From Gammaproteobacteria bacterium (GTDB lineage Bacteria > Pseudomonadota > Gammaproteobacteria > Xanthomonadales > SZUA-36), in the NCBI GenBank assembly GCA_021772915.1, contig JAJFLB010000012.1:62001-126000 (forward strand): DNA of 64,000 nt, in the 5' to 3' direction. The position numbers and the translations under genes are program-made. The notes below the pieces were generated by a model. It searched no databases. It saw nothing but the letters and a program-made list of their open reading frames with translations, and was not told where the DNA came from. How positions within the stretch are numbered: the stretch's first letter is position 1; every line of letters begins with the position of its first letter. Shown here piece after piece: positions 27,899 to 46,878 of the stretch.

Positions 27899-28468
27899 AT
27901 GGATTACCGTCATTCACGACGTACTTTTATCCGCACTTCCGGTATTGGTTTACTGGGCTTCTGCGTCGCTGGCTGTCAGCAGGACCTCACACCCGAACAA
28001 GCACGTAAGCAGGGAATTCCCTTTAATGTCTTGAGCACGGAAGAAGTGCAAACCCTGGAAGCACTTGGTGAAACCCTGCTTCCCGGTAGCGCGGTCTCGG
28101 GTCTCGCTCATTTCATTGATCACCAACTGTTTGCCCCACATCATGAGCAAATGCTGATCATCAAGTACCTGGGCGCCAGCCCACCGTTTACATCCTTTTA
28201 TAGTGGGGGTTTGGCAGCATTGAACAATACGGCACGGGTGCAATACGGGCAACGGTATACGGGGTTGGCTGATGAGCAGCGGGTTGAGCTGGTTGGACGA
28301 ATTGCCGAGGCCAATCCACCGGACTGGGTCGGGCCACCGGCGCCATTTTTCTATTTCGTTTTGCGCAACGACGTCGTGGATGTTGTCTACGGCACCCGGG
28401 AAGGCGTAGAAAGCCTGGGTCTTCCTTACATGGCACATATCGAGCCACCGAGCCGGTGGGGTGAATGA
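27899..28468 (+). CDS. Tat-exported lipoprotein, gluconate 2-dehydrogenase subunit 3 family
   Basis: 189 residues. The N-terminus has a twin-arginine motif SRRTFIRTSG (6-15) followed by a hydrophobic stretch and a lipobox VAGC with Cys26, so it should be exported folded and lipid-anchored. The body (LSTEEVQTLEALGETLLPG, ARVQYGQRYTGLADEQR) is the small-subunit fold that accompanies GMC-type dehydrogenases. It overlaps the GMC gene by 4 nt (ATGA). Because the GMC protein has no signal of its own, this subunit probably carries it through the Tat pore. Confidence 0.85.
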   Translation: MDYRHSRRTFIRTSGIGLLGFCVAGCQQDLTPEQARKQGIPFNVLSTEEVQTLEALGETLLPGSAVSGLAHFIDHQLFAPHHEQMLIIKYLGASPPFTSFYSGGLAALNNTARVQYGQRYTGLADEQRVELVGRIAEANPPDWVGPPAPFFYFVLRNDVVDVVYGTREGVESLGLPYMAHIEPPSRWGE

Positions 28469-30900: not shown

Positions 30901-32217
30901 TCAGCGACCGGCCTTGCGCAGGTTTTGTACGGAAAACAGTTTTGGCTGATTGACATCATCGGTCACCTGGCTTTTGAACTGCAACGTGGTGCAATGATTG
31001 GCCTGGACGTCGATAACCAGCGCGAAGTCATCCAGCGCGACCCCCTTGCCCAGGTTAACGGGCAGATGATGATCAGAGTGCGCCTTGCCGATCGGGAACC
31101 ATTTCCACATATCACCCTTGCGGTCATAAGTGACCAGAGAGGCCATGGTCATCGTTTGTGAATCGAGGTTGATGACCCGCTTGCCGATCGGATGGTTGGG
31201 GTCCTTTGGTCGGCCGACCAGCGTAAAGCTCTTGCGCAACTGGTAGGTCACCTTGGGGAAACAGTTTCCCTGGCCCTCGACGTCGATGAATTTGTAGCCG
31301 TCGGGATCATTCTTGGGTACGTCCGCCAGGTCCATATCGTTGTGATAATAAAACGGCAATAGCAGGTTGCGGGTGCCTGCATACTCCCAGGTGTAATCCG
31401 TCACCCGGCCGTTATAACCCTCGAAGTCCTCAATCATCAGGTCACTGCCCAAAAATGCGTCGGTGATTTGACCTGCAGCCAGACGGCGGACGCGGCGCTG
31501 AAAGCCGACGTACAGCCAGGCGTTGTCACGCTTGGTGTCGTCCTGGTAGCGGTGGATCAGAATCTGGGTGTTGGCCAGATCAAAAGGTTCCTTCACGATA
31601 CCGTAAATGCCGCGGTAGATTTCTCCGGGATTATTTTCATAGGCTGGTCTGGGGTCGAAGGTAACCCGATGGTTGTGGTTAATGAAATGCCACTCAAACT
31701 TAAGTTGACGCTCAACCTTGGCGGTTTTTACATTGCGGAAAGTCCACCAGAATGGATAGATGGTTTCGCTGTCACCGGAGTTAAAGCCGTATTGATAGTC
31801 CCACACGAGTTTCTGCCCCGCCAATGGGTCATCTGCCCGAGGTTCCTGGGGGAATGCACGACCCGCTACGAAGTTATTCAGTGTGCCGTTCTCAGCAAGC
31901 GTTACACCACCGGCGTGCTGACGCGTCGCTGCAACATAGTCTTCACTGAGTGGGAAGTCAGTGGTCGGTGCAGTTCGAATCGTAACCCAGCCGTCTTTGA
32001 CAAACCTGAACAAGGCTTCATCAAGTATCGCCTGGAATTGGTCAGCATTATTTTGATCAATGACTACACCCGGGCTATAACCATCCGCTGTAGGTGTCCA
32101 GTCATTGTAAGGATAAAAGGACCTGTTGATATCTTCCTCGGTAAATGATTCGGCTGCAACGGTCTGCGCAAGCCCGAGCATGCCGATGATCAATGCTTTT
32201 AATATGGCGTGTTTCAT
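30901..32217 (-). CDS. DUF1329 family exported protein
   Basis: 438 residues. The signal peptide is 1-22 (MLGLAQTVAA). The body has the family signature DLMIEDFEGYNGRVTDYTWEY and the YRGIYGIVKEPF region, and ends in a GKGVALDDFALVIDVQ block. DUF1329 proteins fold like LolA/LolB and are thought to carry hydrophobic cargo between membranes. They are nearly always encoded with DUF1302 and an MMPL/RND pump, as here (gaps of 12 bp and 2 bp). I infer a periplasmic chaperone for a lipophilic molecule. Confidence 0.88.
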   Translation of the reverse strand: MKHAILKALIIGMLGLAQTVAAESFTEEDINRSFYPYNDWTPTADGYSPGVVIDQNNADQFQAILDEALFRFVKDGWVTIRTAPTTDFPLSEDYVAATRQHAGGVTLAENGTLNNFVAGRAFPQEPRADDPLAGQKLVWDYQYGFNSGDSETIYPFWWTFRNVKTAKVERQLKFEWHFINHNHRVTFDPRPAYENNPGEIYRGIYGIVKEPFDLANTQILIHRYQDDTKRDNAWLYVGFQRRVRRLAAGQITDAFLGSDLMIEDFEGYNGRVTDYTWEYAGTRNLLLPFYYHNDMDLADVPKNDPDGYKFIDVEGQGNCFPKVTYQLRKSFTLVGRPKDPNHPIGKRVINLDSQTMTMASLVTYDRKGDMWKWFPIGKAHSDHHLPVNLGKGVALDDFALVIDVQANHCTTLQFKSQVTDDVNQPKLFSVQNLRKAGR

Positions 32218-32229
32218 AATGGCCTCCTG

Positions 32230-34242
32230 TTAGAACCGATACCGAAGTGTCAGTTGAAATTCATCTTCATTGATACCCATACCAAATGGACCTGCACGGA
32301 AGCGTCCAATGGGCTCGAATCCGCTTAGCCCCAAACTGCTGAAGGGCGCGCCACACAGTGGCGAACCTGCGGCTGCAAGGGGTGGTGCGCACGTAAATGG
32401 CGGGAAGGGGTTCGCTCCGCGATTATCATCGAACACCCGGGCACCATCACCAAACTTCAGGTTCAGCGCGGCGATAAAACGCCAGTTATCACTGATTTTC
32501 CAGTCAACTGACGGCGAAACAACACCACTATTCGCCCCAAAATCGTAGGCTGTGAGAATCTGTGGTGTCAACCGGTCATTAAGGTAGTTGCCCTGGAATA
32601 AAAAGGTCGCAATATAATTATTCTTCCAGTCGACCATGCCGACATCGGATAATGTCGGTACGCCCTGCGCATTAGTGCGCTGCAATTGATGATCCAGCAA
32701 ATGTTGGCCGAAGACCTGCAGAGATAGCAGGTATGCCCGGCTCTTGTTCAAAAACGGTATGAAAGTCGGCCGGTCGATACCGATGACCCAACGAACGACA
32801 TCCGATTCCGAAAACAGCCGTCCCTCGAGTGTGTTTGGAAATTCTTCACCGGAAGTGTGCGCGACTTCGACGCGAAATGCAGACTTCATGGATTCAACAT
32901 AAAAGTCGGCAGATGCACCTACCATGGTCAGGCGGGGAAAGTCGATATCAAATGCCAGGGCATAGGGGTGGAACTGCGCTTCGGGTGGTGGTGTGAACGG
33001 GTTGTCTGATGCTATACCACCTCTGAGTGAAGGCATTTGTGAGGTGTAGCGCAGTACGTTGAAAGAGAATCCTACCCCATTCATGACCCCTTCGATACGG
33101 AACCCATAGTCGTCCGCGCCGGGCTTGTTGGCCTGGCGTATTCCGAGCGCGTGGGAAGGGAAATCCACCGCCAGTCCCGTATCCGGGAAGTTCCACACCG
33201 TACAGCCGTTATCCCAGCAGTTGTTCATAGCCCTGAAGAAGTTACCCGCGCCGATGATTGCATAGGGCTCGCCACCCTGGCCCAGATTGTTGGGTCGAAA
33301 GTCCTCGAATTTCCAAATGGCCTGGAAATTCAGGTCTTCAAATCCGGCTGTGGCACCGGCACGATACTCCATGTTGAAAATACCCATTGGTATGCGGATA
33401 TCCTCTAGCTCATCAAAGATATTGTGACGTGAAAAGTCGACCGGGTTTATGACATCCAGAACACGAAACAGGTCTGTTCTGCCCCATACAACCTGCTGCC
33501 GACCGATGCGAAAGCCAAGTTCATTTCCCCCATCGAAGGCCATCGTGGCATCCAGGTAAAACTCGCGGATGAAATCAAGTCTGCTGTTAAACTCGGAAAA
33601 ACGCAGCTCGTCCTCATCATCATCCATATAGCCATCGATGCAGCCCCGATTGTCGATGTCGCAGGGACGTGTCGGGTAGGCAAGTACGACGCCACCATTT
33701 TCAAAGTTGTGCACGTCTTCCCCGACCAGACCCAGACCAGTGTTTGGATTGCCGACGCCAATGTGCCCACCAGGTACGCCGGGCAAAGGTATTGCGCCAG
33801 TGGCAGTTGGTGGTGGGAAGACACCTGCATAGCAGGGGTTTGTAGACGGTGGGAAAGGTGGTGTAGTCGGGTTGCCGGTAGCGAGAATGCCGAAAAAAGC
33901 GGGGTTGCCCGGTGCTGGAAAACACACCGAGCGACCAGAGTTTTTTCCAAACTCGTCATCGTTCAGATCATAGACGGCATCATAGCTGCCACGGAAAGTT
34001 CCGTTGAACGAAACCTCGGAGAAAAGCCCTGAAGAACTCCATGCTTTTGATAACTCTAGCTGCAGGGTAGTTCTTGATTTTGTAATGCCAACACCGTGGG
34101 CACGGGTAAAAGTCGCGTTTTCAATGAACCCTCGGAACTCAGTGTCTTGAGCAGACGTCAGGGGTACGAACGCCAGCGTCGCGACAAGGCATGCCAGGAT
34201 AAATCGCGTGGTAGTGAAAAGTACTGTTCTCTTAAGGTTCAC
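32230..34242 (-). CDS. DUF1302 family outer-membrane protein
   Basis: 670 residues with a signal peptide (1-31, ending SAQ). Alternating strands, Gly/Asn-rich loops and the C-terminal NEDEFQLTLRYRF (aromatic end) show an outer-membrane beta-barrel. The region IGRQQVVWGRTDLFRVLDVINPVDFSRHN is a recognisable DUF1302 block. Two proline/glycine-rich stretches (~115-160) are probably surface loops, and paired cysteines occur there and near the C-terminus. It is probably the outer-membrane channel for the RND pump encoded immediately upstream (2 bp) and the DUF1329 chaperone downstream. The direction of transport is unproven. Confidence 0.88.
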   Translation of the reverse strand: MNLKRTVLFTTTRFILACLVATLAFVPLTSAQDTEFRGFIENATFTRAHGVGITKSRTTLQLELSKAWSSSGLFSEVSFNGTFRGSYDAVYDLNDDEFGKNSGRSVCFPAPGNPAFFGILATGNPTTPPFPPSTNPCYAGVFPPPTATGAIPLPGVPGGHIGVGNPNTGLGLVGEDVHNFENGGVVLAYPTRPCDIDNRGCIDGYMDDDEDELRFSEFNSRLDFIREFYLDATMAFDGGNELGFRIGRQQVVWGRTDLFRVLDVINPVDFSRHNIFDELEDIRIPMGIFNMEYRAGATAGFEDLNFQAIWKFEDFRPNNLGQGGEPYAIIGAGNFFRAMNNCWDNGCTVWNFPDTGLAVDFPSHALGIRQANKPGADDYGFRIEGVMNGVGFSFNVLRYTSQMPSLRGGIASDNPFTPPPEAQFHPYALAFDIDFPRLTMVGASADFYVESMKSAFRVEVAHTSGEEFPNTLEGRLFSESDVVRWVIGIDRPTFIPFLNKSRAYLLSLQVFGQHLLDHQLQRTNAQGVPTLSDVGMVDWKNNYIATFLFQGNYLNDRLTPQILTAYDFGANSGVVSPSVDWKISDNWRFIAALNLKFGDGARVFDDNRGANPFPPFTCAPPLAAAGSPLCGAPFSSLGLSGFEPIGRFRAGPFGMGINEDEFQLTLRYRF

Positions 34243-34244
34243 TT

Positions 34245-36599
34245 CTATTCCTCCTGTTGAGCTTGTCGTGTAATGAACTCAGGTGTAAATGTTTTTAACC
34301 AGGCCGGCACCAGGAAAATGGACGCCATGGCGTTCAGTGCCAACATAACGATCAGTAACATGGCTGCATCGGCCTGGAACTTCAGATCAGATACAAACAC
34401 CCACATCATTACGCCACAGATCAGTGTGGCTGCGGTGAAACCGATGGCTTTGCCGGTTGTGGCAAGGGCGGATTTAATCGCTTCGTTGAGTTCCAGGCCA
34501 CCATGGAATTCCGAGCGGATGCGATCCATCAGGTAGATGGAGTAATCGATTCCCACACCAATCCCGACCGCAATAATGGGTACCGTATTGACGTTAATGC
34601 CGATCCCGGCCAGACCCATGTAAGCATAAGTCAGGACGGTTGCGAAAGACATGGCGATCAACATGATCAGACCGGCATGTAGGGATGTATAAAAAGCCGC
34701 AACGGACAAAAATATCAGGGCAAATACCAGTGGGATGATAATCAGGTTGGTTTCAAATGCGGCATCATTGATTGCTGCATTGACACCAATAGTGCCCCCA
34801 GCCAGTTTCAGTGTAAATCCGTCAATGCTGGATTCCACGCTAGCCTTCCATTGATTGATCATTTCGATTGCACGCCGGATGGTGGTCCCCTGGTGATCCT
34901 TGTAGTAAAAAACGATGTTTGCGTTCATCTCGTCGGTATCAAGGAACTCAAGCAAGGCACCCTGAACGGGGCTCGACATCATGTAAAGAAACATCAGTCC
35001 ACCGAGCAGTCGTGCATCATCGGGTACGCTGAACCAACGGGGATCGTTGTAATGCGTGAGCCTGTTCACGGAGCGAATCAAATCCGGTAGGCCCTTGGTT
35101 CCACCCAGCTCAGGGTCTGCCAGCATGTGGGCCTGGAGATCCGCCAGTGCCTTGACTACCTCGGGTCGTTTGAGACCACCCGGTTCATCGGTTTGACCGA
35201 TGACATAAAGTTCCTCGGAGCCCGGGAAGGCCTCATTAATGGTCTTTGAAGAAACGTTATAGTCGTGGTCTGGATACAGCAACGGGGAACCGGGCTCGGT
35301 CTCACCGATCGTGACCTTGGTGCTGGTGGCCAGGGCAGCAACAAAAAGCAACCCACATACAGATAGAATGATGGCCGGTGCACGCGGCCTTGTGACCTTA
35401 TCCGCGATAATTTTGAACAATTTGGCCATGGCACTGCTGCCAGCCGGTCGGACCGTTGGTGTGGGTAACAACTGCAGCACGCAGGGAATCGCTATGATCA
35501 CCGTTATGACGACCGACAGGGCCCACAGGCATGCGTAAACGGCCAGCTTGTCATTAATGGGTACCGAGCCAACAGCAATCAACAACAAACCGATTGCATC
35601 GGAGATCACACCCAGTGATCCGGGCCTGAAAAGGTTGGAAAACGACAGGTGGGCCGCAAAGACCCCATCGTGTCCTTTCTTAATTTCCTGGTAGTAGCGT
35701 TCAACGATCTGGATGCCGTGCGACATGGCCCGGGCGGAGATCAGAAACGGTACAACCAGCATCAACGGATCGAGGTTGTAGCCAAGCAGGGACAGGATGC
35801 CCAAACCCCAGATGGACGTAATGATGATGCCCATGACCGGTAATAAAATTCCGTACATACTGCGGAAGTGCATGACCAGCAAACCCAGCATGATGACCAC
35901 GGTCAACAAGAAAATAGTCATGATCTGATTGGCATAGCTCGATACCCAGCCAACCAGAACCGGTTGTCCGGTTGCGTAAATTTTGATACCTGCAGCAGCC
36001 TCCTGCTCGCGGATCGACTGGAGTTGAAGGAATACCTTGTCGTAGTCAAGTGCGCCCTCGTTCAAAGTACCCCGTACGAGCGCCGATTTCAGATCGGGGG
36101 AAACGATCAGGCCAAAAACACGCGGATCGGCCAGTACATCTTTCCTGATGCCATCAAGCTCAGCATCGCTGTAGCCTCCCTTCAAAGGGTCGTAATAGGT
36201 CGAAGATCTCACTGTGCCTTCGCCACTTAACCAGACCTTCCGCACATTACGGTGGGTCAGGCTGGTCACGAGATTGTGGTTGATTCCTTCCAGTGCATCG
36301 ACCGCAAGTGTGATCCGATGGATTCGGTCCAGCATGTCGTTGCTGATCACCGTTCCGTCTTCGACTGTAATCGCGACGATAATATTGTTTGCACCACCAA
36401 AGGTGTCCCTGATTTCATTGTGGAGTTGAATGTAGGGATGATCCTGGGGTAACAGGTCGGCAAAGTCGGACACGATACGAACCGTGGGTACCCGCAGCGC
36501 AAATACGGCCGTGATAATTGTAATAATCAGCAACGTAGCCTTCGGGAATTTCCACACCAGTTCCACGAACCGGCTCAATGCGTTGCTGAAGCTACTCAT
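34245..36599 (-). CDS. RND/MMPL-superfamily transporter
   Basis: 784 residues from the ATG at 36599; an in-frame start 69 bp further upstream would run into the upstream gene. TM1 (~20-38) is followed by a large periplasmic domain, then five TMs of the first sterol-sensing-like block (LLTVVIMLGLLVMHF onward). A second copy follows: TM, periplasmic loop, and five TMs with GIGVGIDYSIYLMDRIRSEF. This is the HpnN/MMPL-like half-size RND fold, which moves hydrophobic molecules (hopanoids, lipids, steroids). The start overlaps the Ycf48-like gene end by 8 nt and DUF1302 follows at 2 bp. There is no membrane-fusion-protein gene, as is usual for this DUF1302/1329-linked type. Confidence 0.9.
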   Translation of the reverse strand: MSSFSNALSRFVELVWKFPKATLLIITIITAVFALRVPTVRIVSDFADLLPQDHPYIQLHNEIRDTFGGANNIIVAITVEDGTVISNDMLDRIHRITLAVDALEGINHNLVTSLTHRNVRKVWLSGEGTVRSSTYYDPLKGGYSDAELDGIRKDVLADPRVFGLIVSPDLKSALVRGTLNEGALDYDKVFLQLQSIREQEAAAGIKIYATGQPVLVGWVSSYANQIMTIFLLTVVIMLGLLVMHFRSMYGILLPVMGIIITSIWGLGILSLLGYNLDPLMLVVPFLISARAMSHGIQIVERYYQEIKKGHDGVFAAHLSFSNLFRPGSLGVISDAIGLLLIAVGSVPINDKLAVYACLWALSVVITVIIAIPCVLQLLPTPTVRPAGSSAMAKLFKIIADKVTRPRAPAIILSVCGLLFVAALATSTKVTIGETEPGSPLLYPDHDYNVSSKTINEAFPGSEELYVIGQTDEPGGLKRPEVVKALADLQAHMLADPELGGTKGLPDLIRSVNRLTHYNDPRWFSVPDDARLLGGLMFLYMMSSPVQGALLEFLDTDEMNANIVFYYKDHQGTTIRRAIEMINQWKASVESSIDGFTLKLAGGTIGVNAAINDAAFETNLIIIPLVFALIFLSVAAFYTSLHAGLIMLIAMSFATVLTYAYMGLAGIGINVNTVPIIAVGIGVGIDYSIYLMDRIRSEFHGGLELNEAIKSALATTGKAIGFTAATLICGVMMWVFVSDLKFQADAAMLLIVMLALNAMASIFLVPAWLKTFTPEFITRQAQQEE

Positions 36600-37626
36600 C
36601 GAGCACCTCCGCATTTGGCTGCGTGTCATCGTGGGGGATCGTGACCGCAAAAAGCGCACCACCACCACCGGCAGCTATAAACTGACCGTTGCCCAAACCG
36701 GTGACACCACGAAGATAGGTACGGGATTTCGTTGCATCCGAGAACGGACTCCACCCTGCCTCACCCATCTTGTGATATAGAATCGTAGCGTTATCACCGA
36801 CTGCCACCAGCGTGTTGTCTAATCCGGCAATGCCGTAAAGTGGTGTGCTGATTCCGCTCCGCATGTCCAGCCACGATTGACCGCCGTTAACCGTTTCCCA
36901 AATGGTCCCGTTGAGACCCACTACCCATCCCGTTGCGGGGTTGGCGAAGTATGCACTCTGTGGGTAAAAACTATCAGGCAGATCATCAGCACGACTCCAG
37001 CTAAGGCCACCATCGTTGCTAATTAGCACCGTACCGAACTCACCGGTCACAACACCATGTAGCTGATCCGTGAATTGAATCGTGGTCAGGTAGAGGTCTT
37101 CATCCAGCGACCAGGTTTTCCAGTTGGACCCGCCATCCCCTGAGTTGAGAATCGTACTAAAGCCACCAGTCACCCATAGACCATTTGCAAAATCGCAGGT
37201 CATCGCCTGTGGCTCGGTCATTTCGGGTAGTGATTGCCGCAGCCAATTGCCAGCGGGCTGCATGGACCAGATACCGTCGGTTTTTTCAATGCTGTGGAAA
37301 CTGCCGTCCGGACACACTGTGACATCCACCAGGAAGGGCTTGCGGGCTAAGGACGATCGTTGCCAACTGGCGCCACCGTCGGTTGATTGAACGATTGTAC
37401 CCATGCCACCGACGGCTACCACGGTATCCTGGTAGCTCGCCGTCGCCTGGAACAGGTCGGAACGATATGTCGGTTGGGATAACTGATCGTTGACCGCCGA
37501 TAGATCGAGCGCTGCTTCACAGCCCGCGAGCATCGTTCCAAGGAATGCAATGTACAACACGGTTGAGACGGTGCGGTGCCTGGTGTTTAACCGGAGTGTC
37601 TTCTCTACTGCCCTGCAATTATTCAT
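36592..37626 (-). CDS. Ycf48/HCF136-like beta-propeller lipoprotein
   Basis: 344 residues. The N-terminus is long and basic, then hydrophobic, with lipobox LAGC (Cys36), indicating a lipoprotein. Residues ~55-335 contain about six repeats of the BNR/Ycf48 type (VAVGGMGTIVQSTDGGASW, GEFGTVLISNDGGLSW, LNGTIWETVNGGQSW), making a propeller. Related proteins are assembly factors or are encoded beside MMPL pumps in degradation clusters; its precise role there is unknown. It is the first gene of the minus-strand operon and has a 15-bp palindrome 6 bp upstream of its start. Confidence 0.85.
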   Translation of the reverse strand: MNNCRAVEKTLRLNTRHRTVSTVLYIAFLGTMLAGCEAALDLSAVNDQLSQPTYRSDLFQATASYQDTVVAVGGMGTIVQSTDGGASWQRSSLARKPFLVDVTVCPDGSFHSIEKTDGIWSMQPAGNWLRQSLPEMTEPQAMTCDFANGLWVTGGFSTILNSGDGGSNWKTWSLDEDLYLTTIQFTDQLHGVVTGEFGTVLISNDGGLSWSRADDLPDSFYPQSAYFANPATGWVVGLNGTIWETVNGGQSWLDMRSGISTPLYGIAGLDNTLVAVGDNATILYHKMGEAGWSPFSDATKSRTYLRGVTGLGNGQFIAAGGGGALFAVTIPHDDTQPNAEVLDE

Positions 37627-37825: not shown

Positions 37826-38308
37826 ATGCCTAAATCACCAAGCGAAGCCAAATTTGACGAAACACTGAGAAAAAAGAATGTGCTACGTCTGTGGTTGCGG
37901 TTGCTGTCGTGTGAAAGGTCAATCGAACAGCGCATGCGGTCGCATCTGCGTGAGAATTTTGACATTACACTGCCCCAGTTTGAGGTCTTGTGCGAGCTTG
38001 ATCACTACGGCACACCACTTGTTATGTCGCGGCTTTCCGAACTGCTGAAGGTGACGAGCAGCAACATCACTGGCGTAATTGACCGGCTTGAGCGTGACGG
38101 TATCGTCAAGCGTTTTCGATCGAGTGAGGACCGTCGGGTACAGTATATCGATATGACGGCCAAGGGACGGTCAGCATTTGTGAAAATTGCGGCGGACAAT
38201 GCGCTTTGGGTCAGCCGCGCGTTTACCCAGCTAAGCGACAAGGAAGTGAAACAACTTCAGAGGCTTTTACTGAAGGCACGTGAGTCAGCCATCGAGTCTC
38301 TCGGTTGA
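37826..38308 (+). CDS. MarR-family transcriptional regulator
   Basis: 160 residues. The winged helix-turn-helix spans ~45-125: DITLPQFEVLCEL, RLSELLKVTSSNITGVIDRLERDG (recognition helix) and RFRSSEDRRVQYIDMTAKG (wing), with dimerisation helices at both ends. MarR proteins respond to aromatic or phenolic ligands. It overlaps none of the operators but starts 60 bp downstream of them and leads the molybdenum hydroxylase operon; the next gene starts 55 bp after its stop. The divergent RND operon probably shares its control. The N-terminal ~20 residues are extra and basic. Confidence 0.92.
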   Translation: MPKSPSEAKFDETLRKKNVLRLWLRLLSCERSIEQRMRSHLRENFDITLPQFEVLCELDHYGTPLVMSRLSELLKVTSSNITGVIDRLERDGIVKRFRSSEDRRVQYIDMTAKGRSAFVKIAADNALWVSRAFTQLSDKEVKQLQRLLLKARESAIESLG

Positions 38309-38363: not shown

Positions 38364-39239
38364 GTGTCATTAGCAAGTGTTAAGGAATACTTTGCACCCG
38401 ACGGCACCGAAAAGGTACTTGAACTGCTTGAAACTTACGGTGACGGTGCACTGATCGTTGCCGGCGGTAGTTTCGTGCATGGACTGGATGCCCGTGATCT
38501 GCTAACCGGCGTTGAAGCATTGATCGATATTCAGAACCTGGGTCTCGGTCAGATCACGCTGGAAGCAGCGGGTTTGTCAATCGGGGCGACGGTCACTTTC
38601 AGCGAATTACGACAGGACAACGAAATCCAAACTGCAACCGCTCTCGGCGCGGTGCGAGATGCCTTGAATTGTCCACCACTGCAAATCAGAAATGTCGCAA
38701 CCATCGGTGGCAATATCGCAGCGGCTTGCCCTTACTTCGATCTGCCTACAGCGCTGATGTCAGTGGACGGCGTGGTACAGGCATGCGGACCAGACGGTAC
38801 GCGGGAAATCGAGATGCAAGCATTCTTTTCCAGCTTGTTTCAGAATTCACTCGTGGCCGGTGAGTTCGTTACTGGTTTGTTGCTCCCGCCACTGCCCGGG
38901 CGATCATCCAGTGCATTTATCAAGCTTGAAACCAATGCCAACGATCTTGCAATCGTTAATGTTGCGGTGCGGGTCAGTCTCGATGAGTCCGGCATTTGCC
39001 AGCAGGCACGGGTGGTTGTTGGAGGAGGAGTCGCTGAAACTCCGATCAGGGCCACTGCAGCTGAAACCGTTTTGCAGGGTGAAAGAATGACGGACGAATT
39101 GTTGCAGAGCGCCAGTGCTGAAGTGCCCTCGGATTTGCAACCGATGTCTGATCACCGGGCATCAGCAGCCTATCGGTCTGCAGTTGCAAAGACACTGACA
39201 AAACGTGCCCTTGCGCGCGCTTTGGCCCGCCTGGACTAA
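38364..39239 (+). CDS. Molybdenum hydroxylase FAD subunit (CoxM/XdhB-like)
   Basis: 291 residues from GTG at 38364, with GGAG 7 nt upstream; this start fits the family length. An ATG at 38280, inside marR, would add 28 residues. FAD-binding blocks are IVAGGS and TIGGNIAAACPYFD, with the C-terminal CODH-type domain after ~170. It passes electrons from the 2Fe-2S subunit to FAD and on to an acceptor. It is the first of three subunit genes (M, S, L) in a row. It is the xanthine-dehydrogenase/CO-dehydrogenase/quinoline-oxidoreductase type; the large subunit decides the reaction. Confidence 0.88.
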   Translation: MSLASVKEYFAPDGTEKVLELLETYGDGALIVAGGSFVHGLDARDLLTGVEALIDIQNLGLGQITLEAAGLSIGATVTFSELRQDNEIQTATALGAVRDALNCPPLQIRNVATIGGNIAAACPYFDLPTALMSVDGVVQACGPDGTREIEMQAFFSSLFQNSLVAGEFVTGLLLPPLPGRSSSAFIKLETNANDLAIVNVAVRVSLDESGICQQARVVVGGGVAETPIRATAAETVLQGERMTDELLQSASAEVPSDLQPMSDHRASAAYRSAVAKTLTKRALARALARLD

Positions 39240-39246
39240 CGAGAAT

Positions 39247-39732
39247 ATGGACATGAAAAAATCTGTCAGCTTTGAAGTTAACGGTCAACACCAGGAACTT
39301 GCCGTGGCACCCAGCGAAACCCTGTTGCAGGTTTTGCGCGATCAGTTGCGGCTTGTTGGTGCCAAGCGTGGTTGCGATTCCGGCGGCTGTGGCTGTTGTA
39401 CCGTGCATGTGGATGGCAAGGCCGTGTATTCCTGCATGACCTTCGCCCGCTCATTGCAAAACTGTAAAGTGACAACCATCGAGGGACTTACAAAAAAAGA
39501 CGAGCTTGATCCCTTGCAAACTGCTTTTGTCGAACAAGGAGCGGTCCAGTGCGGCTATTGCACCTGCGGCATGATCATGTCCGCAAAGGAGTTTCTGAGC
39601 AAGCATGAACAACCCGATGAGGATCAGATACGCCACGCCATTGCGGGAAACCTCTGCCGTTGTACCGGTTACCACAAGATCGTCAGGGCCATCAAGATAG
39701 CGGGTCAAACCACGGACCTGGCGGGGGAGTAA
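39247..39732 (+). CDS. Molybdenum hydroxylase 2Fe-2S subunit (CoxS/XdhC-like)
   Basis: 161 residues (a second ATG at 39253 is possible). The plant-type [2Fe-2S] ligands are Cys43, Cys48, Cys51 and Cys63 (CDSGGCGCC ... YSC). The second, helical-domain cluster has QCGYCTCGM and CRCTGYHKI. It relays electrons from the molybdenum site to FAD. It lies 7 bp after the FAD subunit gene and 4 bp before the large subunit gene, a tight operon. The cluster region carries one extra Cys in CTC, a minor variation. Confidence 0.92.
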   Translation: MDMKKSVSFEVNGQHQELAVAPSETLLQVLRDQLRLVGAKRGCDSGGCGCCTVHVDGKAVYSCMTFARSLQNCKVTTIEGLTKKDELDPLQTAFVEQGAVQCGYCTCGMIMSAKEFLSKHEQPDEDQIRHAIAGNLCRCTGYHKIVRAIKIAGQTTDLAGE

Positions 39733-39736
39733 GGTC

Positions 39737-42064
39737 ATGACCAAAACAAACGTGGTTGGCCAAAGCGTCATTGGGCCCGATGCCTTGGAAAAGGTTCGGG
39801 GTGGCAAGGGTTTTCCGGTCAACGTCAACCTGCCGGGGATGCTGCACGCCAAACTCTTGCGTAGTCCGTACGCGCATGCCCGTGTTTTGAACATTGATAC
39901 TTCTGAGGCTGAGAAGCTATCAGGCGTCAAGGCCGTCCTCGTGCCAGGCGATGTGCCACAGATAAAGTTCTGCCCGGTCTACTTTGTCCCGACCATGGCG
40001 CCCAGCATGATCCAGGATATGCTGGTGATGAGTGAGACCGTTCGTTATGCGGGCCAACCGGTGGCCGCCGTTGCTGCCACCAGTCCGGAGATTGCCGAGC
40101 AGGCATTACAACTGATCGATGTGGATTACGAAGAACTGGAAGCTGTTTTCGACACCGATTCCGCCATGCAGAACGGCGCACCTCGTCTGCATGAGGAAGC
40201 CGAGAACAACATTGCCAAAAACCCGGTTTTTGAGTTTGGCGACCTTGAAGCTGGATTTGCGGATGCCGATCATATTTTTGAAGGCACCTATAAAACCCAA
40301 CGTGCCCATACCTGTTACATGGAACCCCGTGTTTGTGTGGTTGACAGTGATGTTGACGGGCGCCTGACGGTGCACTCGTCGATGCAGCATATGTTTGGGC
40401 TGCGGGAGAAACTTGCCTTCGTACTGGACCTGCCTGAGAGTATGGTTAACGTCATTAAACCGCCGTACATCGGCGGTGGTTTCGGCGGCAAACTCGATCT
40501 CGGTTATATCGAACCTGTAGCGGCTCTTCTGAGCCTGAAGACAGAAAAACCGGTGCGTATTGAGCAGACTCGGTACGAGGATTTCATCACCACCACACGG
40601 AATCCAATCGAGGTATACCTGAAGACCGGGATCAAGTCAGACGGCACGTTTACCGCCCGTTACGCCCGCAGCACACTCGATTGCGGTGCACATGCGACGC
40701 ACGGTGCGGAAGTCATTATGGTGCATGGCATGTTCGGTATCCTGCTCCCTTACCGGTGTGTCAATCAGACATGGGAAGGCCGTACTGTTTATACCAATAA
40801 CATGATTGGCGGAGGTTATCGTGGTTATGGCTCACCGCAAGGGGCATTTGCCATCGAATCACAAATCGACGAGATATGTGAAGAGCTGGGGCTCGATCCG
40901 ATTGAATTCCGCTTGAAAAATGCCCACAAAGAAGGTGACCCACACCCGTTCAATCCAGAATTTACGCTGTCAACCTATCGTTTCGAAGACTGCCTGCGAC
41001 AGGCGGCCGCGCGCATCGATTGGGGGCAACGGACACCGGCAGGAAGCGCCACCGGCACGATAAAACGTGGCATCGGTTTCGGCTGCCAGGCCCTTTGGGT
41101 CAGCGGCTGCATGGGCTTTCCCGATATTTATGAACACAGCGGGGCGATTATCAAGCTCAACCCCGACGGCACCGCCAACCTGTCCAATGCTACCGTCGAC
41201 ATGGGGTCGGGTCAAAACGTAACTCTGTGTCAAATTGCAGCGGAAGAGCTAGGTCTGCAAGCCGACCAGGTCCGTATGACCTATGCCGATACCGAAACCG
41301 TGCCCTTTGACGCGCCCAGCCATGCGAGCCGAGTGACCTACTCGGCTGGCACCGCGGTCAAAGCCGCAGCAGCAAATGTGAAGAAGAGGCTGTTGGAAGT
41401 TGCCGGTGTAATGCTAGAAACCACTGTAGATGATCTCAAAGTTCAGGACGGTCACGTTTGCCACCAGGGCTCGGACCGGAAACTGTCCATTGCCGAAGTC
41501 GTCAAGCGTGCCGAAAGCCCGTTTGTGCAGATGACCGCAGAAGGACCCCAACCGACGACGATCGGGGAAAAAGGCACGATCATAGGCGTTGCGAGTATGG
41601 CTCCTCCATCCAACCCGTCGCCATCGTCAGTTGAGTTTGTCGAAATCGAAGTCGACACCGAAACCGGTGTGGTAAAAGTGCTCAAGGTTGTGTTTGCGCA
41701 TGATATAGGCAAGGTCATCAATCCGTCGGCGGCACAGGGCCAGGTTGAGGGCGGCTTTCAACAGGGTATGGGATATGCGCTGATGGAGAATATTCTGTTC
41801 GATGACGAAACCGGTGCCTGTCTGACGGCCGATTTTCTCGACTACAAGATGCCCACGGCAGTGGAAATGCCACCCGTTATCGACAGCATCTTTATTGAAT
41901 CGGACGAACCCACAGGACCGTTTGGAGCCAAGAGTCTATCAGAGCCCTGTTGTACGGTGCCGGCACCGGCGATTGCCAACGCCATCTACAATGCGGTGGG
42001 TGTCAGGGTTCGGGAATTGCCTATCACACCGGAAAAAATCCTCGCCGGTCTTGGAAAACTCTGA
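39737..42064 (+). CDS. Molybdenum hydroxylase large subunit (XDH type, not CO dehydrogenase)
   Basis: 775 residues. The cofactor-binding IGGGFGGK is at 245-252 and GGGYRGYGSPQ is the loop near the Mo ligand. The catalytic base is Glu736 in KSLSEPCCTVPAPAIANAI. The CO-dehydrogenase loop AYRCSFR is absent, so CO oxidation is ruled out. The enzyme should hydroxylate a carbon next to nitrogen, an aldehyde or an aromatic ring, or, in the benzoyl-CoA-reductase-like branch, remove a phenolic hydroxyl. It uses the Moco made via MoaA (9.8 kb), probably as the cytosine dinucleotide. The substrate cannot be read. Confidence 0.9.
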   Translation: MTKTNVVGQSVIGPDALEKVRGGKGFPVNVNLPGMLHAKLLRSPYAHARVLNIDTSEAEKLSGVKAVLVPGDVPQIKFCPVYFVPTMAPSMIQDMLVMSETVRYAGQPVAAVAATSPEIAEQALQLIDVDYEELEAVFDTDSAMQNGAPRLHEEAENNIAKNPVFEFGDLEAGFADADHIFEGTYKTQRAHTCYMEPRVCVVDSDVDGRLTVHSSMQHMFGLREKLAFVLDLPESMVNVIKPPYIGGGFGGKLDLGYIEPVAALLSLKTEKPVRIEQTRYEDFITTTRNPIEVYLKTGIKSDGTFTARYARSTLDCGAHATHGAEVIMVHGMFGILLPYRCVNQTWEGRTVYTNNMIGGGYRGYGSPQGAFAIESQIDEICEELGLDPIEFRLKNAHKEGDPHPFNPEFTLSTYRFEDCLRQAAARIDWGQRTPAGSATGTIKRGIGFGCQALWVSGCMGFPDIYEHSGAIIKLNPDGTANLSNATVDMGSGQNVTLCQIAAEELGLQADQVRMTYADTETVPFDAPSHASRVTYSAGTAVKAAAANVKKRLLEVAGVMLETTVDDLKVQDGHVCHQGSDRKLSIAEVVKRAESPFVQMTAEGPQPTTIGEKGTIIGVASMAPPSNPSPSSVEFVEIEVDTETGVVKVLKVVFAHDIGKVINPSAAQGQVEGGFQQGMGYALMENILFDDETGACLTADFLDYKMPTAVEMPPVIDSIFIESDEPTGPFGAKSLSEPCCTVPAPAIANAIYNAVGVRVRELPITPEKILAGLGKL

Positions 42065-42096
42065 AGCCACACAATGACAAGTGTTAACCAGCCCGA

Positions 42097-42675
42097 ATGA
42101 GAATCGAAAAGAGCTTTGAAATTAGTGCATCACAAGAAGAAGTATGGCGGTTTGTCAGCACACCGGAGATGGTCGGGATGTGCTTTCCAGGTTGTCAAGG
42201 TGTAACCGCACTTGGCGAGGACAAGTACAAGGCCACTATAAAAGTTCATTTCGGGCCGATAAAAACAGTCTTCAATGTCGACTTCGAAGCAACTGAAACA
42301 CGACCAACAGAATTTTTGTCCTATACTAGCCGTGGCGAGGAAGGCAATCGTGCCAGCCGTCTGAAGGCCGACAGCACTTTGACTTTGTCAACGCTCAATG
42401 AGGGTCGGACCCGGGTTGTTTACACCTCTGACGTATCCATCGTGGGACGACTCGGCAAGTTCGGGCTTGGTATGATGAACAAAAAGGCCGATTCGATGGG
42501 TGATGAATTCGTGCAGGTTTTGCGCACGAAAATCGAAGGCCCGTCAGACCATGACGTGGACGTGCCTGCAACGATCGAAAAGAATGGCCATGACGGCTGG
42601 CAGAAATTTATCATGGTGGCGATCGCGGTCACCATAACCATTGTGGTTTTCTATTTTTTACAGGTTGACGTTTGA
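42097..42675 (+). CDS. CoxG-family SRPBCC protein with C-terminal membrane anchor
   Basis: 192 residues. The START-like fold of CoxG covers residues 1-150 (RIEKSFEISASQEEVWRFVS, MCFPGCQGVTALGEDKYKA). The end is a single TM helix (IMVAIAVTITIVVFYFL), as in the CO-dehydrogenase CoxG that tethers the enzyme to the membrane. The presence of both features implies that the molybdenum hydroxylase is held at the inner membrane and gives electrons to the respiratory chain. It lies 32 bp after the large subunit gene. Confidence 0.85.
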   Translation: MRIEKSFEISASQEEVWRFVSTPEMVGMCFPGCQGVTALGEDKYKATIKVHFGPIKTVFNVDFEATETRPTEFLSYTSRGEEGNRASRLKADSTLTLSTLNEGRTRVVYTSDVSIVGRLGKFGLGMMNKKADSMGDEFVQVLRTKIEGPSDHDVDVPATIEKNGHDGWQKFIMVAIAVTITIVVFYFLQVDV

Positions 42676-42706
42676 CCAGGTTAACCCCGACCCAGGAACG
42701 AGAAAA

Positions 42707-45322
42707 ATGAGTAGCCAAGAACCCATCCAGAACTCGTTGAAACCCGGCAAATGGATCAGGTCCACATGCAAGATGTGCCTGCATTCCTGCGGCAGCATGA
42801 TCCACGTGACCGATGCCGGGATTATCAACAAGATTGAAGGCGACCCCACCAATCCTTCCAACAACGGCAAGCTTTGTCCGAAAGGTAACTCGGCCATCAT
42901 GCGGCACTATGATCCGAATCGTTTCACCCAGCCGTTAAAGCGCACCAATCCGGAAAAAGGCCCGGGTATCGATCCCAAGTGGGAACCGATCAGCTGGGAT
43001 GAGGCATTTGATCTGACTGCCAGGGAGTTAAAAAAGTCGATCGATGAGGATCCACGCAAGCTGCTGCCTTCGATCGAAGACTTCCAGAAGTTTAATATCT
43101 GGAATTGGCCGCTTGCATTCGGCAACCAGAACAGCTTTCAGTCCGGCGGCACGATGTGTGGCGGTGCCTATCATCCGGTCAACGGTATCGTCCACTCAGC
43201 CTTTGCGGTGGCTAATGATGTCAAACACTGTAATTACTGGATCAATGACGGCACCGGTGATGGGTTTTCTTCGCACCTGCACGCCGCGGCACAATCAAAC
43301 TGGGTTGCAAAAGCACGTATTGATCGCGGCATGCGGTGCGTCACGATCGAGCCACGGCTATCCACATCGGCCGCCAAGTCAGAAGAGTGGATACCCATCC
43401 GTCCCGCCACCGACCGGCACTTTGCGCTGAGTCTGTGTCATGTCATGGTCAAGGAAGGACTATGCGATTATGCCTTCCTGAGAAAGGACACCAACGCACC
43501 CTACCTGGTCGGGGCTGACGGATATTTCGTACGCAACGCAGAGGACAAGATTTATGTCTGGGACTCAGTTGATGAGGAGGCAAAACTGTGGGATGACCCT
43601 GGAATCAAGAAAATAGCCCTCGAAGGCATCTATGAAGTGAATGGCAATGAATGCAAACCCGCATTCCAACGATTTGTTGACATCCTGGATGACTGTTCAC
43701 CGGAAGAAACAGAAAAGGTCACCACGGTACCGGCGGAAACCACCTGGCGTATTGCCCGTGAGTTTGCCGAAGCTGCGACGATCGGGGCAACTATTGATAT
43801 TGAAGGCCGCACGCTGCCACTCAGACCCGCCGGTTATAACTATTACCGTGGTGCCCAGGGACATAAACACGGTTTTCAGACCAACCATGCGTTCAAGATG
43901 GTCAACTTCATGGTCGGCAACATCGATACGCCAGGCGGACTCATGGGCGTTACCCTAGACGATCAGTGGGTCGACCGTAGCCACGTGGAGCCTGGTGAAA
44001 ACGGTATGATGCTGCCCCAACCACATCAATTGGGACCATTACCTCCCTTTGCCTTTCCACCCACCACGCACCATTTGTTGAACTATTTCCCGGTTGGTCT
44101 TCACCCGCCACACCTGAATCTGGAAGTGTTTCTGAATCGCGAGAAATATGGTGTCGATTTTGTACCGGATGTGATGGTGATCTGTCATTCCAACCCCTTG
44201 TGGGCCATTCAGGGGCCACGGCACAAGTGGCTGGAATTCATGCGCAGTATGCGATTCATAGTGGTTTCCGACATTATTCCGACGGAGACCACCTTGTGGG
44301 CGGATGTGATATTGCCTTCACACGACGCACTGGAATCGTGGAACATGACCATGATCGAGCCGCCACACACTGAAGGCATGTGTCTGCGCCAACCGGCCAC
44401 CGAGCCCCTGCACAACACCAAGAGCGAAGAGGAAATATTCTATGAGCTCTCTGAACGCATGGGTATTCTGGAAGGTTACAATGCGGTCATCAACATCGTT
44501 TCGGGCTTTGAACACAAACCGGAGTTGATGCTCGAACTGGATAAAAAGTATACCGACAAGGAGATCGCGCGGCGCAAGGGCCTGCTCTGGAACGACAAGG
44601 ATATCGATTGGTATGCCGAACGCGGTCATGCCGTAACCGAGCGCCGGACAGACAAGTGGTACCGGCCCTGGGAAGGTATGCGTCTGCATTTTTATATCGA
44701 GGATATGGTGAAAGAGCGAGACCAGCTCAAAGCCAATATGGAGGAGGCCGATGTGCCCTTCCGAAATGACTGGTGTTGGGATGATTACCAACCATTACCG
44801 ACGGCGGTTTTGGACCCGGTACACGAAGAGCCAGCCGAATACGATCTTTACGGCATTTTCTATAAGGATATCCAGCTGAACTTTGGCGAGAGCCTCAGCA
44901 ATCCCTGGATCAAGGATATTGTTTACCGAGATCCGGTGCACATTGCTCTGATATTGAACCCCAAAACGGCTGCAGCCCAAGGGTTGGAGCAGCGGGACAT
45001 AGTCAAGGTGGAGTCACCCAACGGGTTCCTGTTTGGACGCATTGGAACCTCCGAAGGCATGCATCCGGACACACTTGGTGTCTCCAACGCCCTGTCACGC
45101 ACCAAAACTTCACACAAGGGTGTCGCACATGCAGGCGGGCACTTTAATGACCTGCTTCCCTATGACCTCAAAAACACGGATGCGGTCACCGGGCAACCCG
45201 AAACAGTCTGCAAGGTCAAGCTCACCAAACTGGACGATTGGCCGGAAGGTCTCAAGGATGGCAAGTCTGTCTACGACCTGGTGGATAAGTTGCAGGAAAC
45301 AGGTGGCGGGGGGGTGCACTGA
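42707..45322 (+). CDS. Mo-bisPGD oxidoreductase catalytic subunit (DMSO reductase/PsrA-like)
   Basis: 871 residues. The 4Fe-4S ligands are Cys21, Cys24, Cys28 and Cys57 (CKMCLHSC ... KLCPKGN). Cys151 in SGGTMCGGAYHP is positioned to ligate molybdenum. MGD-binding blocks follow (PVNG, NYYRGAQGHKHG, VICHSNPLWAIQG). There is no Tat leader, so unlike PsrA or TorA it should stay cytoplasmic. With the B and C genes downstream it forms a complex iron-sulfur molybdoenzyme whose active site faces the cytoplasm. The ATG at 42707 is preceded by AGGAACGAG. The Cys-liganded branch includes tetrathionate, polysulfide, arsenate and nitrate-like enzymes and acetylene hydratase; the reaction here is unknown. 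Its pairing with an XDH-type enzyme in one operon is unusual. Confidence 0.88.
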   Translation: MSSQEPIQNSLKPGKWIRSTCKMCLHSCGSMIHVTDAGIINKIEGDPTNPSNNGKLCPKGNSAIMRHYDPNRFTQPLKRTNPEKGPGIDPKWEPISWDEAFDLTARELKKSIDEDPRKLLPSIEDFQKFNIWNWPLAFGNQNSFQSGGTMCGGAYHPVNGIVHSAFAVANDVKHCNYWINDGTGDGFSSHLHAAAQSNWVAKARIDRGMRCVTIEPRLSTSAAKSEEWIPIRPATDRHFALSLCHVMVKEGLCDYAFLRKDTNAPYLVGADGYFVRNAEDKIYVWDSVDEEAKLWDDPGIKKIALEGIYEVNGNECKPAFQRFVDILDDCSPEETEKVTTVPAETTWRIAREFAEAATIGATIDIEGRTLPLRPAGYNYYRGAQGHKHGFQTNHAFKMVNFMVGNIDTPGGLMGVTLDDQWVDRSHVEPGENGMMLPQPHQLGPLPPFAFPPTTHHLLNYFPVGLHPPHLNLEVFLNREKYGVDFVPDVMVICHSNPLWAIQGPRHKWLEFMRSMRFIVVSDIIPTETTLWADVILPSHDALESWNMTMIEPPHTEGMCLRQPATEPLHNTKSEEEIFYELSERMGILEGYNAVINIVSGFEHKPELMLELDKKYTDKEIARRKGLLWNDKDIDWYAERGHAVTERRTDKWYRPWEGMRLHFYIEDMVKERDQLKANMEEADVPFRNDWCWDDYQPLPTAVLDPVHEEPAEYDLYGIFYKDIQLNFGESLSNPWIKDIVYRDPVHIALILNPKTAAAQGLEQRDIVKVESPNGFLFGRIGTSEGMHPDTLGVSNALSRTKTSHKGVAHAGGHFNDLLPYDLKNTDAVTGQPETVCKVKLTKLDDWPEGLKDGKSVYDLVDKLQETGGGGVH

Positions 45323-45936
45323 TGTCAAGAGTCGGGATGGTCTTCGACCTGCGGCGTTGTATTGGTTGCAATGCCTGCGTGGTCGCATGCAAACAGGAAA
45401 ACTCCCTGCCGGATGGCGTATTTTTTACACGTACACTGAGTCAGGAGTACGGCGTTTTTCCCAACGTTAACCGCGTCTACATACCCACACTGTGTAATCA
45501 CTGCGAGGATGCACCCTGCCAGAAAGTCTGTCCAAGCGGTGCAACTTACACCCGCGATGACGGTATAGTGATGGTCGACGGTGAGAAATGTATCGGTTGT
45601 AATTCATGCGCCGTGGCCTGTCCGTATGACCAACGCTCGGTGATGACGAAAGAGTCGTTTGAAGACGGACTGTACGCGGATGGAAACCTGACACCATTCG
45701 AGGAGCAGGGCTACACCCGCTTTACACCGGGTACCGTTACCAAGTGCGATTTCTGCAGTGAACGAGTGGATGCAGGCCTGGATCCCGCTTGCGTGGCGAC
45801 CTGCCCTACCGATGCACGGATTTTCGGCGATCTTGATGATCCTCAAAGCAAGGCCAGGCAGTTGATTGATGAACGCGGCGGCAAACCACCACTACCCGAG
45901 AAAAATACCAAACCAAAGGTGTTCTACGTGAGTTAG
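45322..45936 (+). CDS. 4Fe-4S electron-transfer subunit (PsrB/NrfC-like)
   Basis: 204 residues. The start shares one base with the catalytic-subunit stop (TGATG), so translation is coupled. Four clusters of cysteines are visible: CIGCNACVVACKQEN, CNHCEDAPCQKVCPSGA, CIGCNSCAVACPYD and CDFCSERVDAGLDPACVATCP, enough for four [4Fe-4S] clusters. It links the catalytic subunit to the membrane subunit. There is no signal peptide, which fits a cytoplasmic complex. Confidence 0.93.
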   Translation: MSRVGMVFDLRRCIGCNACVVACKQENSLPDGVFFTRTLSQEYGVFPNVNRVYIPTLCNHCEDAPCQKVCPSGATYTRDDGIVMVDGEKCIGCNSCAVACPYDQRSVMTKESFEDGLYADGNLTPFEEQGYTRFTPGTVTKCDFCSERVDAGLDPACVATCPTDARIFGDLDDPQSKARQLIDERGGKPPLPEKNTKPKVFYVS

Positions 45937-45975
45937 GACACATCCATAACGGACGGAAGGAAAAGAGAACCCATC

Positions 45976-46878
45976 ATGGCATCAGCACAACCAGCAATCG
46001 TAGGTGACAGTTTTGCAGTCGGTTATCGCTTTCAGCGTTATTGGGGCACATCCATGGCCAGTGCATTTTTCTGCGGAGAGCTTGGAGCCGGTCTGTTTCT
46101 GGTTTCGCTTTACTACTCGGTAAACGCGGGAATGATTCTCGGGTTGGTCGTAACGGCAGTTTTGAAGACGTATTTTCACACCTCTCACATGGGTGTTCCG
46201 GCCAAGTCATGGCGTGCCATTTTGAGACCCGATCGTGCCTGGGTCAGCCGTGGTCTTATCATGATAGTGTTGTTTACGGGCTTTGGCGTCTTGCACGTTG
46301 TAACTGGAGCCTATGGTCTGTTTGAGATGGGAAGCAGTGCAACGTTAGACATCATCAAGATCGTTGCGGCCCTGGCTGCTGTGGGTGTGATGGCATACCA
46401 CGGTTTTGCCATGTCCGATTCCACCGCGATTTCACTTTGGGACTCACGCCTGATGCCACTGGTCAGCGTGGGTTACGCACTTTTGGGTGGTGCAGTCGTG
46501 ACAGCGGTATTGGCAGGGCCGACACAGGCCGGCGATGTCTCCCAAACTGCAGTCTCGTTGCCATCGCTTGGCTTGGTGCTGGTTTTACTTAATGCAGGCC
46601 TGGTTTCTGCCCTGTTGTATGGTGCTTACCACGGTTCACCGGGCGCCCGGATATCGGCGGAAATGCTGTTCAAGGGTGTATTTGCAAGGCAATTCGTTCC
46701 GCTGGTGTTTGTGCTTGGCCTCGCTCTGCCATTTGCGCTTTTACTTTGGGCTCCGGGGTCTTTCTTCGTCGAACTAGCCGTCGCGATTGCCGCACTTATC
46801 GGTTACTACGCTTTTCGAGTGTTCATATTGAGAGCTGGCGTATATGAGCCGATCATGAACTTCGCACCCCCCGAGTGA
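45976..46878 (+). CDS. NrfD/PsrC-type quinone-reactive membrane subunit
   Basis: 300 residues with about eight TM segments. The N-terminal part (FFCGELGAGLFLVSLYYS) contains the Glu and Gly-rich segment near the quinone site of NrfD/PsrC proteins, and TSHMGVPAKSWRAI is the loop between TM helices. It anchors the molybdenum complex and exchanges electrons with the quinone pool. It is the last gene of the plus-strand operon and lies 39 bp after the Fe-S subunit. The convergent DUF2783 gene follows 66 bp away; the short gap shows no hairpin. Confidence 0.87.
   Translation: MASAQPAIVGDSFAVGYRFQRYWGTSMASAFFCGELGAGLFLVSLYYSVNAGMILGLVVTAVLKTYFHTSHMGVPAKSWRAILRPDRAWVSRGLIMIVLFTGFGVLHVVTGAYGLFEMGSSATLDIIKIVAALAAVGVMAYHGFAMSDSTAISLWDSRLMPLVSVGYALLGGAVVTAVLAGPTQAGDVSQTAVSLPSLGLVLVLLNAGLVSALLYGAYHGSPGARISAEMLFKGVFARQFVPLVFVLGLALPFALLLWAPGSFFVELAVAIAALIGYYAFRVFILRAGVYEPIMNFAPPE

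Follow-up and report, generated by a model that had tools for sequence, protein, structure and literature searches.

An operon in a window of 64,000 nucleotides of a Gammaproteobacteria bacterium (Xanthomonadales, SZUA-36; GenBank assembly GCA_021772915.1, contig JAJFLB010000012.1, positions 62,001 to 126,000) joins enzymes of two molybdoenzyme classes in a conserved pair that most likely serves as a module for the oxygen-independent oxidation of indole and oxindole. On one strand, the window encodes a MarR-family regulator, the subunits XdhM, XdhS and XdhL of a xanthine dehydrogenase (XDH)-type hydroxylase, a CoxG protein, and then the large subunit of a molybdenum bis(pyranopterin guanine dinucleotide) (Mo-bisPGD) enzyme, a ferredoxin-like subunit with 16 cysteines and an NrfD-type subunit, the last three of which we call PadBCD-like after phenylacetyl-CoA:acceptor oxidoreductase. 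An earlier note on this DNA had proposed that two molybdoenzyme classes share one operon, and this was confirmed by the Pfam families, the common strand and intergenic gaps of 13, 4, 32, 31, -1 and 39 bp from XdhM onward. A MarR homologue (64% identity) also stands upstream of matching XDH genes in genome G014 and locus L116.

The linkage of the XDH-type and PadBCD-like genes goes beyond chance, because XdhMSL immediately precede the same PadBCD-like genes, on the same strand, in six alphaproteobacterial loci (L049, L051, L054, L056, L065 and L074). A scan of genome contigs from 84,980 species yielded 46 PadB-like loci, a set that is not exhaustive because the scan called for one of six short peptide patterns to be matched exactly, and their flanks were fetched up to 10 kb per side, often less. 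Co-occurrence was assessed in 46 genomes with PadB-like genes, namely 44 behind the scanned loci, G014 (the genome of L046) and the window's own. An A-type XdhL (at least 63% identity) was present in 26 of these 46, while a window-type XdhL (at least 65%) was present in 14 of the 36 genomes tested, or 15 with the window's own; nine genomes, eight with the A-type and one negative, stood outside the window-type test. Thus one of the two types accompanies PadB-like genes in 41 of 46 genomes, and none was found with both. Among 398 genomes sampled from the order, PadB-like genes and window-type XdhL were each found in two, and in the identical two (E at most 1e-180), which are not fully independent because they belong to the same family. 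The A-type and window-type clades are sisters (Shimodaira-Hasegawa-like approximate likelihood ratio test 99) in a tree of 56 rows, including same-genus paralogues of about 35% identity and no characterised XDH enzymes, for which the rows L162, L172 and L002, with the look of a wrong reading frame, were replaced, only three of the seven "second" XDH rows entered the alignment, and two contig-end fragments of G014 were left out.

The first enzyme has the L, M and S domains and the molybdenum-binding domains of an XDH family molybdenum hydroxylase, a make-up common to the N-heterocycle hydroxylases of the family (4-hydroxybenzoyl-CoA reductase (4-HBCR), 6-hydroxypseudooxynicotine dehydrogenase, quinoline 2-oxidoreductase) and the molybdenum CO dehydrogenase (CODH); it differs from these in forming its own clade, found with PadBCD-like genes, in the tree just described. 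The best PDB match of XdhL is the alpha subunit of 4-HBCR (388 bits; CoxL 293 bits), and it scores under the cut-off of each NCBIfam model that it matched. CO oxidation was rejected, since in the region aligned with CoxL the sequence GGGYRGYGSPQ replaces AYRCSFR, which we take to be the CuSMo loop motif of CoxL and which the earlier note had rightly found missing, and the CoxL models, with cut-offs of 991 and 950, gave scores of 309 and 362 bits. The membrane tie claimed for CoxG is borne out by a single C-terminal hydrophobic stretch (residues 167-192). Like other CoxG proteins it has a PF06240 domain and a C-terminal helix, but unlike the CoxG of CODH it adjoins a non-CODH enzyme. Its retention holds for the window XDH but not for relatives in general: tblastn of the fetched loci found a clear CoxG after window-type XdhL in no case other than the window and G014, besides a weak match of 20% in L042, and four gammaproteobacterial loci (L177, L185, L188 and L189) have AAA-type and VWA-type open reading frames after XdhL instead (Pfam on two of these gave AAA in L177 and VWA_CoxE in L189). 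A CoxG-like anchor has been reported in the case of Sulfolobus G3P dehydrogenase and suggested in that of Ensifer 3-hydroxypyridine dehydrogenase (PMC11962113), and quinone delivery by CoxG in CODH is cited in PMC13240472. A second, distant XDH (XdhL 27-30% identical to the window's) lies near the window-type XDH in the gammaproteobacterial loci L177, L183, L184, L185, L187 and L190.

The second enzyme combines a Mo-bisPGD subunit, a subunit with four [4Fe-4S] motifs and an NrfD-type subunit (seven hydrophobic stretches at the threshold used) without a twin-arginine translocation (Tat) leader, which we take to be the defining features of PadBCD. As the earlier note had stated for the leader, no RR motif occurs among the first 40 residues of the large subunit, in which C21, C24, C28 and C57 make up one [4Fe-4S] cluster. 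Cys151 (counted from the ATG at 42707) falls, in a HMMER alignment, in the same column as the cysteines of ArrA, polysulfide/thiosulfate reductase and Nap, which are presumably their Mo ligands. It is invariant in an alignment of 30 sequences, and in one of 54 rows the column is cysteine in each of the 45 PadB-like rows, which comprise the window and 44 relatives, and in all five rows of the PadB type, a feature thus common with PadBCD of Thauera and Aromatoleum. A cytoplasm-facing, cysteine-ligated enzyme is therefore supported by the cysteine column and the missing RR, but the AlphaFold model (30 sequences; mean predicted local distance difference test score 65.7, below 50 at residues 145-172) is too weak around the Mo site to bear on the ligand.

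From the genes, families, ligand position, linkage, co-occurrence and phylogeny observed we infer the reactions, substrate and electron flow of a pathway, and somewhat favour the reading that the operon oxidises an indole-type ring in two consecutive steps, both independent of oxygen and linked to quinone. First, the XDH-type enzyme would put a water-derived oxygen on C2 and convert indole to oxindole, with CoxG serving either as its membrane anchor or as its quinone carrier. The PadBCD-like enzyme would then oxidise the C3 methylene next to the new carbonyl, giving isatin, possibly via dioxindole, with oxygen again from water and four electrons that PadC relays to quinone at a cytoplasm-facing site of PadD; this would be the same chemistry as that of PadBCD on phenylacetyl-CoA. 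Isatin hydrolase would open the ring to isatinate (2-aminophenylglyoxylate), IorAB would convert isatinate to 2-aminobenzoyl-CoA, and FdhD would sulfurate the Mo site. It is the more likely case that both enzymes feed quinone. Of the two explanations offered earlier for the pairing, sequential oxidation gains support from co-occurrence and from the pathway genes that accompany relatives, while regeneration of an acceptor by one enzyme for the other gained no support. Whether one as yet unnamed module of this kind, an XDH-type indole 2-hydroxylase with an FdhD-matured PadBCD-like oxindole:quinone oxidoreductase, turns indole into isatin without oxygen across alpha-, beta-, gamma- and deltaproteobacteria seems to us evenly balanced. 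Anaerobic breakdown of indole has been reported to pass through oxindole, dioxindole, isatin and anthranilate (PMC6221969).

The genes around the PadBCD-like relatives provide the pathway context. Within the fetched flanks, isatin hydrolase and PadEGHI-type genes were each counted in 14 of the 46 PadB-like loci, an XdhL of this family in 12 and IorA in four. A gene identified as FdhD from the scanned members of its cluster (PF02634 in L038, FdhD in L201) is present in 26 of 54 clustered stretches other than the window, some covering the same place, and immediately follows PadD in 23 of the 26; the one FdhD found in the window genome is not next to the operon but on contig C10, close to another match of the DMSO-reductase family. 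In Aromatoleum toluclasticum (L061), XdhL, YCF48, RND, DUF1302, DUF1329, PadBCD-like, FdhD, isatin hydrolase and PadE, G, H and I run in one direction; four Pad proteins tested exceed their NCBIfam cut-offs, and the PadI of the true pad cluster scores higher than the L061 copy. On a Glaciimonas contig (G107:C17), an indolepyruvate-oxidoreductase-type gene, PadBCD-like genes and FdhD are followed after about 30 kb by a second group, in which IorA, IorB, isatin hydrolase and a window-type XDH (XdhL 65%) lie within 13 kb, accompanied by Rid-type genes.

In the window, isatin hydrolase (PDB 5nmp 361 bits, 4j0n 288 bits, both near full length) and IorAB lie 15-19 kb upstream of XdhM, with a DUF1329-DUF1302-RND-YCF48 set in between. 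The same four genes occur near PadBCD-like genes in L038, L040, L050, L060, L061, L064 and L073 and next to MarR-XdhMSL in G014, a TonB receptor and a GMC gene, as in the window, near PadBCD-like genes in L051, L054 and L056, and IorA-like homologues adjoin isatin hydrolase in L049, L054, L056, L065, L176 and L191. Isatin hydrolase (at least 58% identity) is present in 20 of the 46 PadB-like genomes. By PadB clade, it is found in 19 of 20 alpha/beta/Aromatoleum-type genomes, including nine of ten from the alphaproteobacterial clade that is sister to the gamma clade, and in none of five of the deltaproteobacterial clade; deltaproteobacterial-type loci (L068, L072 and L079, of which L072 and L068 were scanned) have a hydantoinase-like gene, a cyclic amidohydrolase standing between XdhL and PadE in Desulfocarbo (L072). 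The window genome also encodes, on contig C43, a protein of the PRK08255 monooxygenase/reductase family (1254 bits, cut-off 1078), to which 2-aminobenzoyl-CoA monooxygenase presumably belongs, and which would fit aerobic use of 2-aminobenzoyl-CoA.

Several observations weigh against the favoured reading, beginning with the window's own gamma clade. Isatin hydrolase of at least 58% identity is missing from 20 of its 21 genomes (four have only 38-40% relatives), the exception being the window's; L066, grouped with the gammas in the first PadB tree, and L075, in no tree, were counted as gammas at 75% and 72% identity. In this clade PadBCD-FdhD adjoins two ApbA genes, M24, luciferase-like, FAH, M20, another PF04199 cyclase and HMGL, from which no pathway emerged (L038 1218-9726, scanned in that locus only; related sets in L035, L037, L040, L041, L045, L046, L073 and L077). 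Among 101 relatives, isatin hydrolase (at least 58%) occurs in four (G000, G005, G053 and G069), PadB-like genes too only in G000; G005, G053 and G069 have it without PadB-like genes or window-type XdhL, with IorAB nearby in G005 and G053, the isatin hydrolase of the same-genus G005 being 86% identical. Three Aromatoleum genomes also carry extra copies. Isatin hydrolase is thus not tied to PadBCD, and therefore its module can serve another route, e.g. that of indoleacetate. Identity between the window XdhL and its counterpart next to PadBCD in alphaproteobacteria amounts to only about 36%, five of the 46 genomes showed neither XDH type (one of them, G135, outside the window-type test), and G014, read across a contig break inside XdhL, has MarR-XDH-CoxG without PadBCD within 20 kb, its PadBCD being on another contig.

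For these reasons (a gamma clade mostly without isatin hydrolase and with other PadBCD neighbours, isatin hydrolase found apart, XDH-CoxG of G014 without adjoining PadBCD, CoxG rare), the sequential pairing of both enzymes is held more firmly than the substrate. The substrate in the gamma clade may differ, because isatin hydrolase is missing in 20 of 21 and the PadBCD neighbours are other. An account in which the same sequential chemistry acts there on another heterocycle or aryl compound, and the window's isatin hydrolase belongs to a separate indoleacetate/tryptophan route, draws on precisely these facts and on the isatin hydrolase-IorAB module that stands alone in G005. We nevertheless regard it as rather unlikely, as nine of ten genomes of the sister alphaproteobacterial clade have isatin hydrolase, Glaciimonas links window-type XDH with isatin hydrolase and IorAB, and all parts lie inside 28 kb of the window.

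The initial identification of the second enzyme was phenylacetyl-CoA oxidoreductase itself, suggested by its three subunits and a nearby PaaK; that it is PadBCD fed by this PaaK-type ligase (49827-51134), with the XDH serving something else, is now improbable. The three-subunit, Tat-less architecture is the same, among the characterised enzymes compared, PadB of A. evansii scored highest pairwise (263 bits, tblastn; programs differ between comparisons), and PaaK exceeds its NCBIfam cut-off (723 against 646). However, the catalytic subunit falls outside the PadB clade, in a separate clade of 45 PadB-like rows (27-29% local identity, 29-30% in the multiple alignment). The tree was rebuilt without L020 (a branch 8.4 long, probably wrong frame), L016, L027, L032 and L066; L075, truncated, is in neither PadB tree. 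In Aromatoleum, the pad cluster was located via PadI; in three genomes the PadB next to the best PadI and PaaK shares only 29-30% identity with the window enzyme, while a distinct orthologue of the latter, at 65-66%, adjoins isatin hydrolase in these genomes (L058, L059/L063, L061). The Aromatoleum cluster, together with a PadB homologue elsewhere in the window genome (on the 3.4-kb contig C38, 65% identical to that of A. evansii), ruled out the initial identity. Homologues of PaaK, the FAD hydroxylase and the metallo-beta-lactamase-fold protein of the window's downstream run were not found in PadB-like loci. What the two enzymes would have in common is alpha-oxidation of a CH2 beside a carbonyl, whereas the PadB-like relatives, 29% identical in the catalytic subunit, stand beside isatin hydrolase and a second PadEGHI set, not PaaK/PadJ. 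Rhee and Fuchs 1999 (cited in PMC9765128) describe phenylacetyl-CoA:acceptor oxidoreductase in their title as a membrane-bound Mo-Fe-S enzyme, and the roles of the Pad pathway, with PadBCD in alpha-oxidation, are given in PMC5109826 and PMC9765128.

It is very improbable that XDH-CoxG and PadBCD-like genes are accidental neighbours with unrelated roles: G014 with no adjoining PadBCD, and the gamma-clade stretches fetched around window-type XdhL, in which XDH and PadBCD-like genes lie apart, would agree with this, but the co-occurrence with one of two sister XDH clades in 41 of 46 genomes and in the same two of 398, and the independent adjacency in alphaproteobacteria, argue against it. Hardly credible is a respiratory reductase of the polysulfide, thiosulfate or arsenate type standing by chance behind an XDH operon, since, while ArrA and polysulfide/thiosulfate reductase are the best PDB sequence matches, Foldseek of the weak AlphaFold model returned the DMSO-reductase superfamily with ArrA first, and the cysteine column is shared with these enzymes, there is no RR near the N-terminus, the large subunit scores under the cut-off of each NCBIfam model matched (PhsA 207 of 694 bits, ArrA 129 of 1600), and linkage to catabolic genes recurs in several proteobacterial groups. 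Membership in a known sulfur or nitrate respiratory family, which according to the earlier note would have spoken against its reading, was not found, the respiratory scores being far under the cut-offs and the enzyme forming its own clade.

Indole is a widespread bacterial signal and a pollutant. If the proposed indole pathway is true, the oxindole-isatin route by which indole is broken down anaerobically, long seen in cultures without known genes, would have genes assigned to it, and the PadB-like clade would be a second CH2-oxidising enzyme of the PadBCD type besides phenylacetyl-CoA oxidoreductase; Aromatoleum strains carry candidate genes, so the hypothesis is testable now. The aerobic iad loci also proceed through isatin and have iorB/iorA-type genes as in the window, but use a ring-hydroxylating dioxygenase, and iaa is a distinct anaerobic indoleacetate pathway to 2-aminobenzoyl-CoA (PMC9613470); the accessible portion of that paper names a PadBCD-like enzyme for neither. 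In the literature searched, with subscription papers mostly outside its coverage, no paper naming genes for oxindole to isatin was found, nor was a description of this combination of enzymes, although the component enzymes are of known kinds.

Table 1. Genes of the operon and associated genes in the window, with predicted roles
Feature	Position	Strand	Basis
MarR-family regulator, first in run	37826..38308	+	Pfam MarR
XdhM, FAD subunit of XDH-type hydroxylase	38364..39239	+	FAD_binding_5, CO_deh_flav_C
XdhS, 2x[2Fe-2S] subunit	39253..39732	+	Fer2, Fer2_2
XdhL, Mo subunit; proposed indole (N-heteroaromatic) C2 hydroxylase	39737..42064	+	Ald_Xan_dh_C, MoCoBD_1, MoCoBD_2
CoxG, C-terminal hydrophobic helix; proposed XDH anchor or quinone shuttle	42097..42675	+	COXG 70.9 bits
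PadB-like Mo-bisPGD catalytic subunit; proposed oxindole:acceptor oxidoreductase	42707..45322	+	families; likely Mo ligand Cys151
PadC-like subunit, four [4Fe-4S] motifs (16 Cys)	45322..45936	+	62-84% identity across other loci
PadD-like NrfD-type membrane subunit	45976..46878	+	Pfam NrfD 43 bits
Isatin hydrolase	22884..23663	-	PDB 5nmp 361 bits over residues 4-257; Pfam Cyclase
IorA-like thiamine pyrophosphate subunit; proposed isatinate:acceptor oxidoreductase (CoA-acylating)	20699..22846	-	IOR_alpha 285 bits, under 651 cut-off
IorB-like subunit	19164..20789	-	PRK08312 643 bits, cut-off 348; start codon uncertain (overlaps IorA)
DUF1329, DUF1302, MMPL/RND permease, YCF48-like; probable hydrophobic-compound transport set	30901..37626	-	Pfam
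TonB receptor, gluconate-dehydrogenase-subunit-3-like, GMC oxidoreductase; possible accessory genes	25353..30045	+	Pfam

Other genes of the window were noted in passing. Beside IorB, positions 18115-19107 (+) encode a 330-aa protein with a ferredoxin domain that matches a reductive dehalogenase model at 101 bits, under its 160-bit cut-off. A class-V aminotransferase (cysteine-desulfurase/kynureninase-like) at 23861-25075 (+) is 75% identical to one at 2975-4150 (-) of L191, and such a gene lies near isatin hydrolase and IorAB both in the window and in the same-genus G005. Downstream of the operon, 47148-52768 (-) holds the run of FAD hydroxylase (PRK08132), metallo-beta-lactamase-fold protein, PaaK and ActP-like symporter. 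The moaA gene (GTP 3',8-cyclase) of molybdenum cofactor synthesis lies at 9832-10869 (+; 370 bits, cut-off 284), and two radical SAM proteins are encoded at 11194-12201 and 16530-17885 (+).

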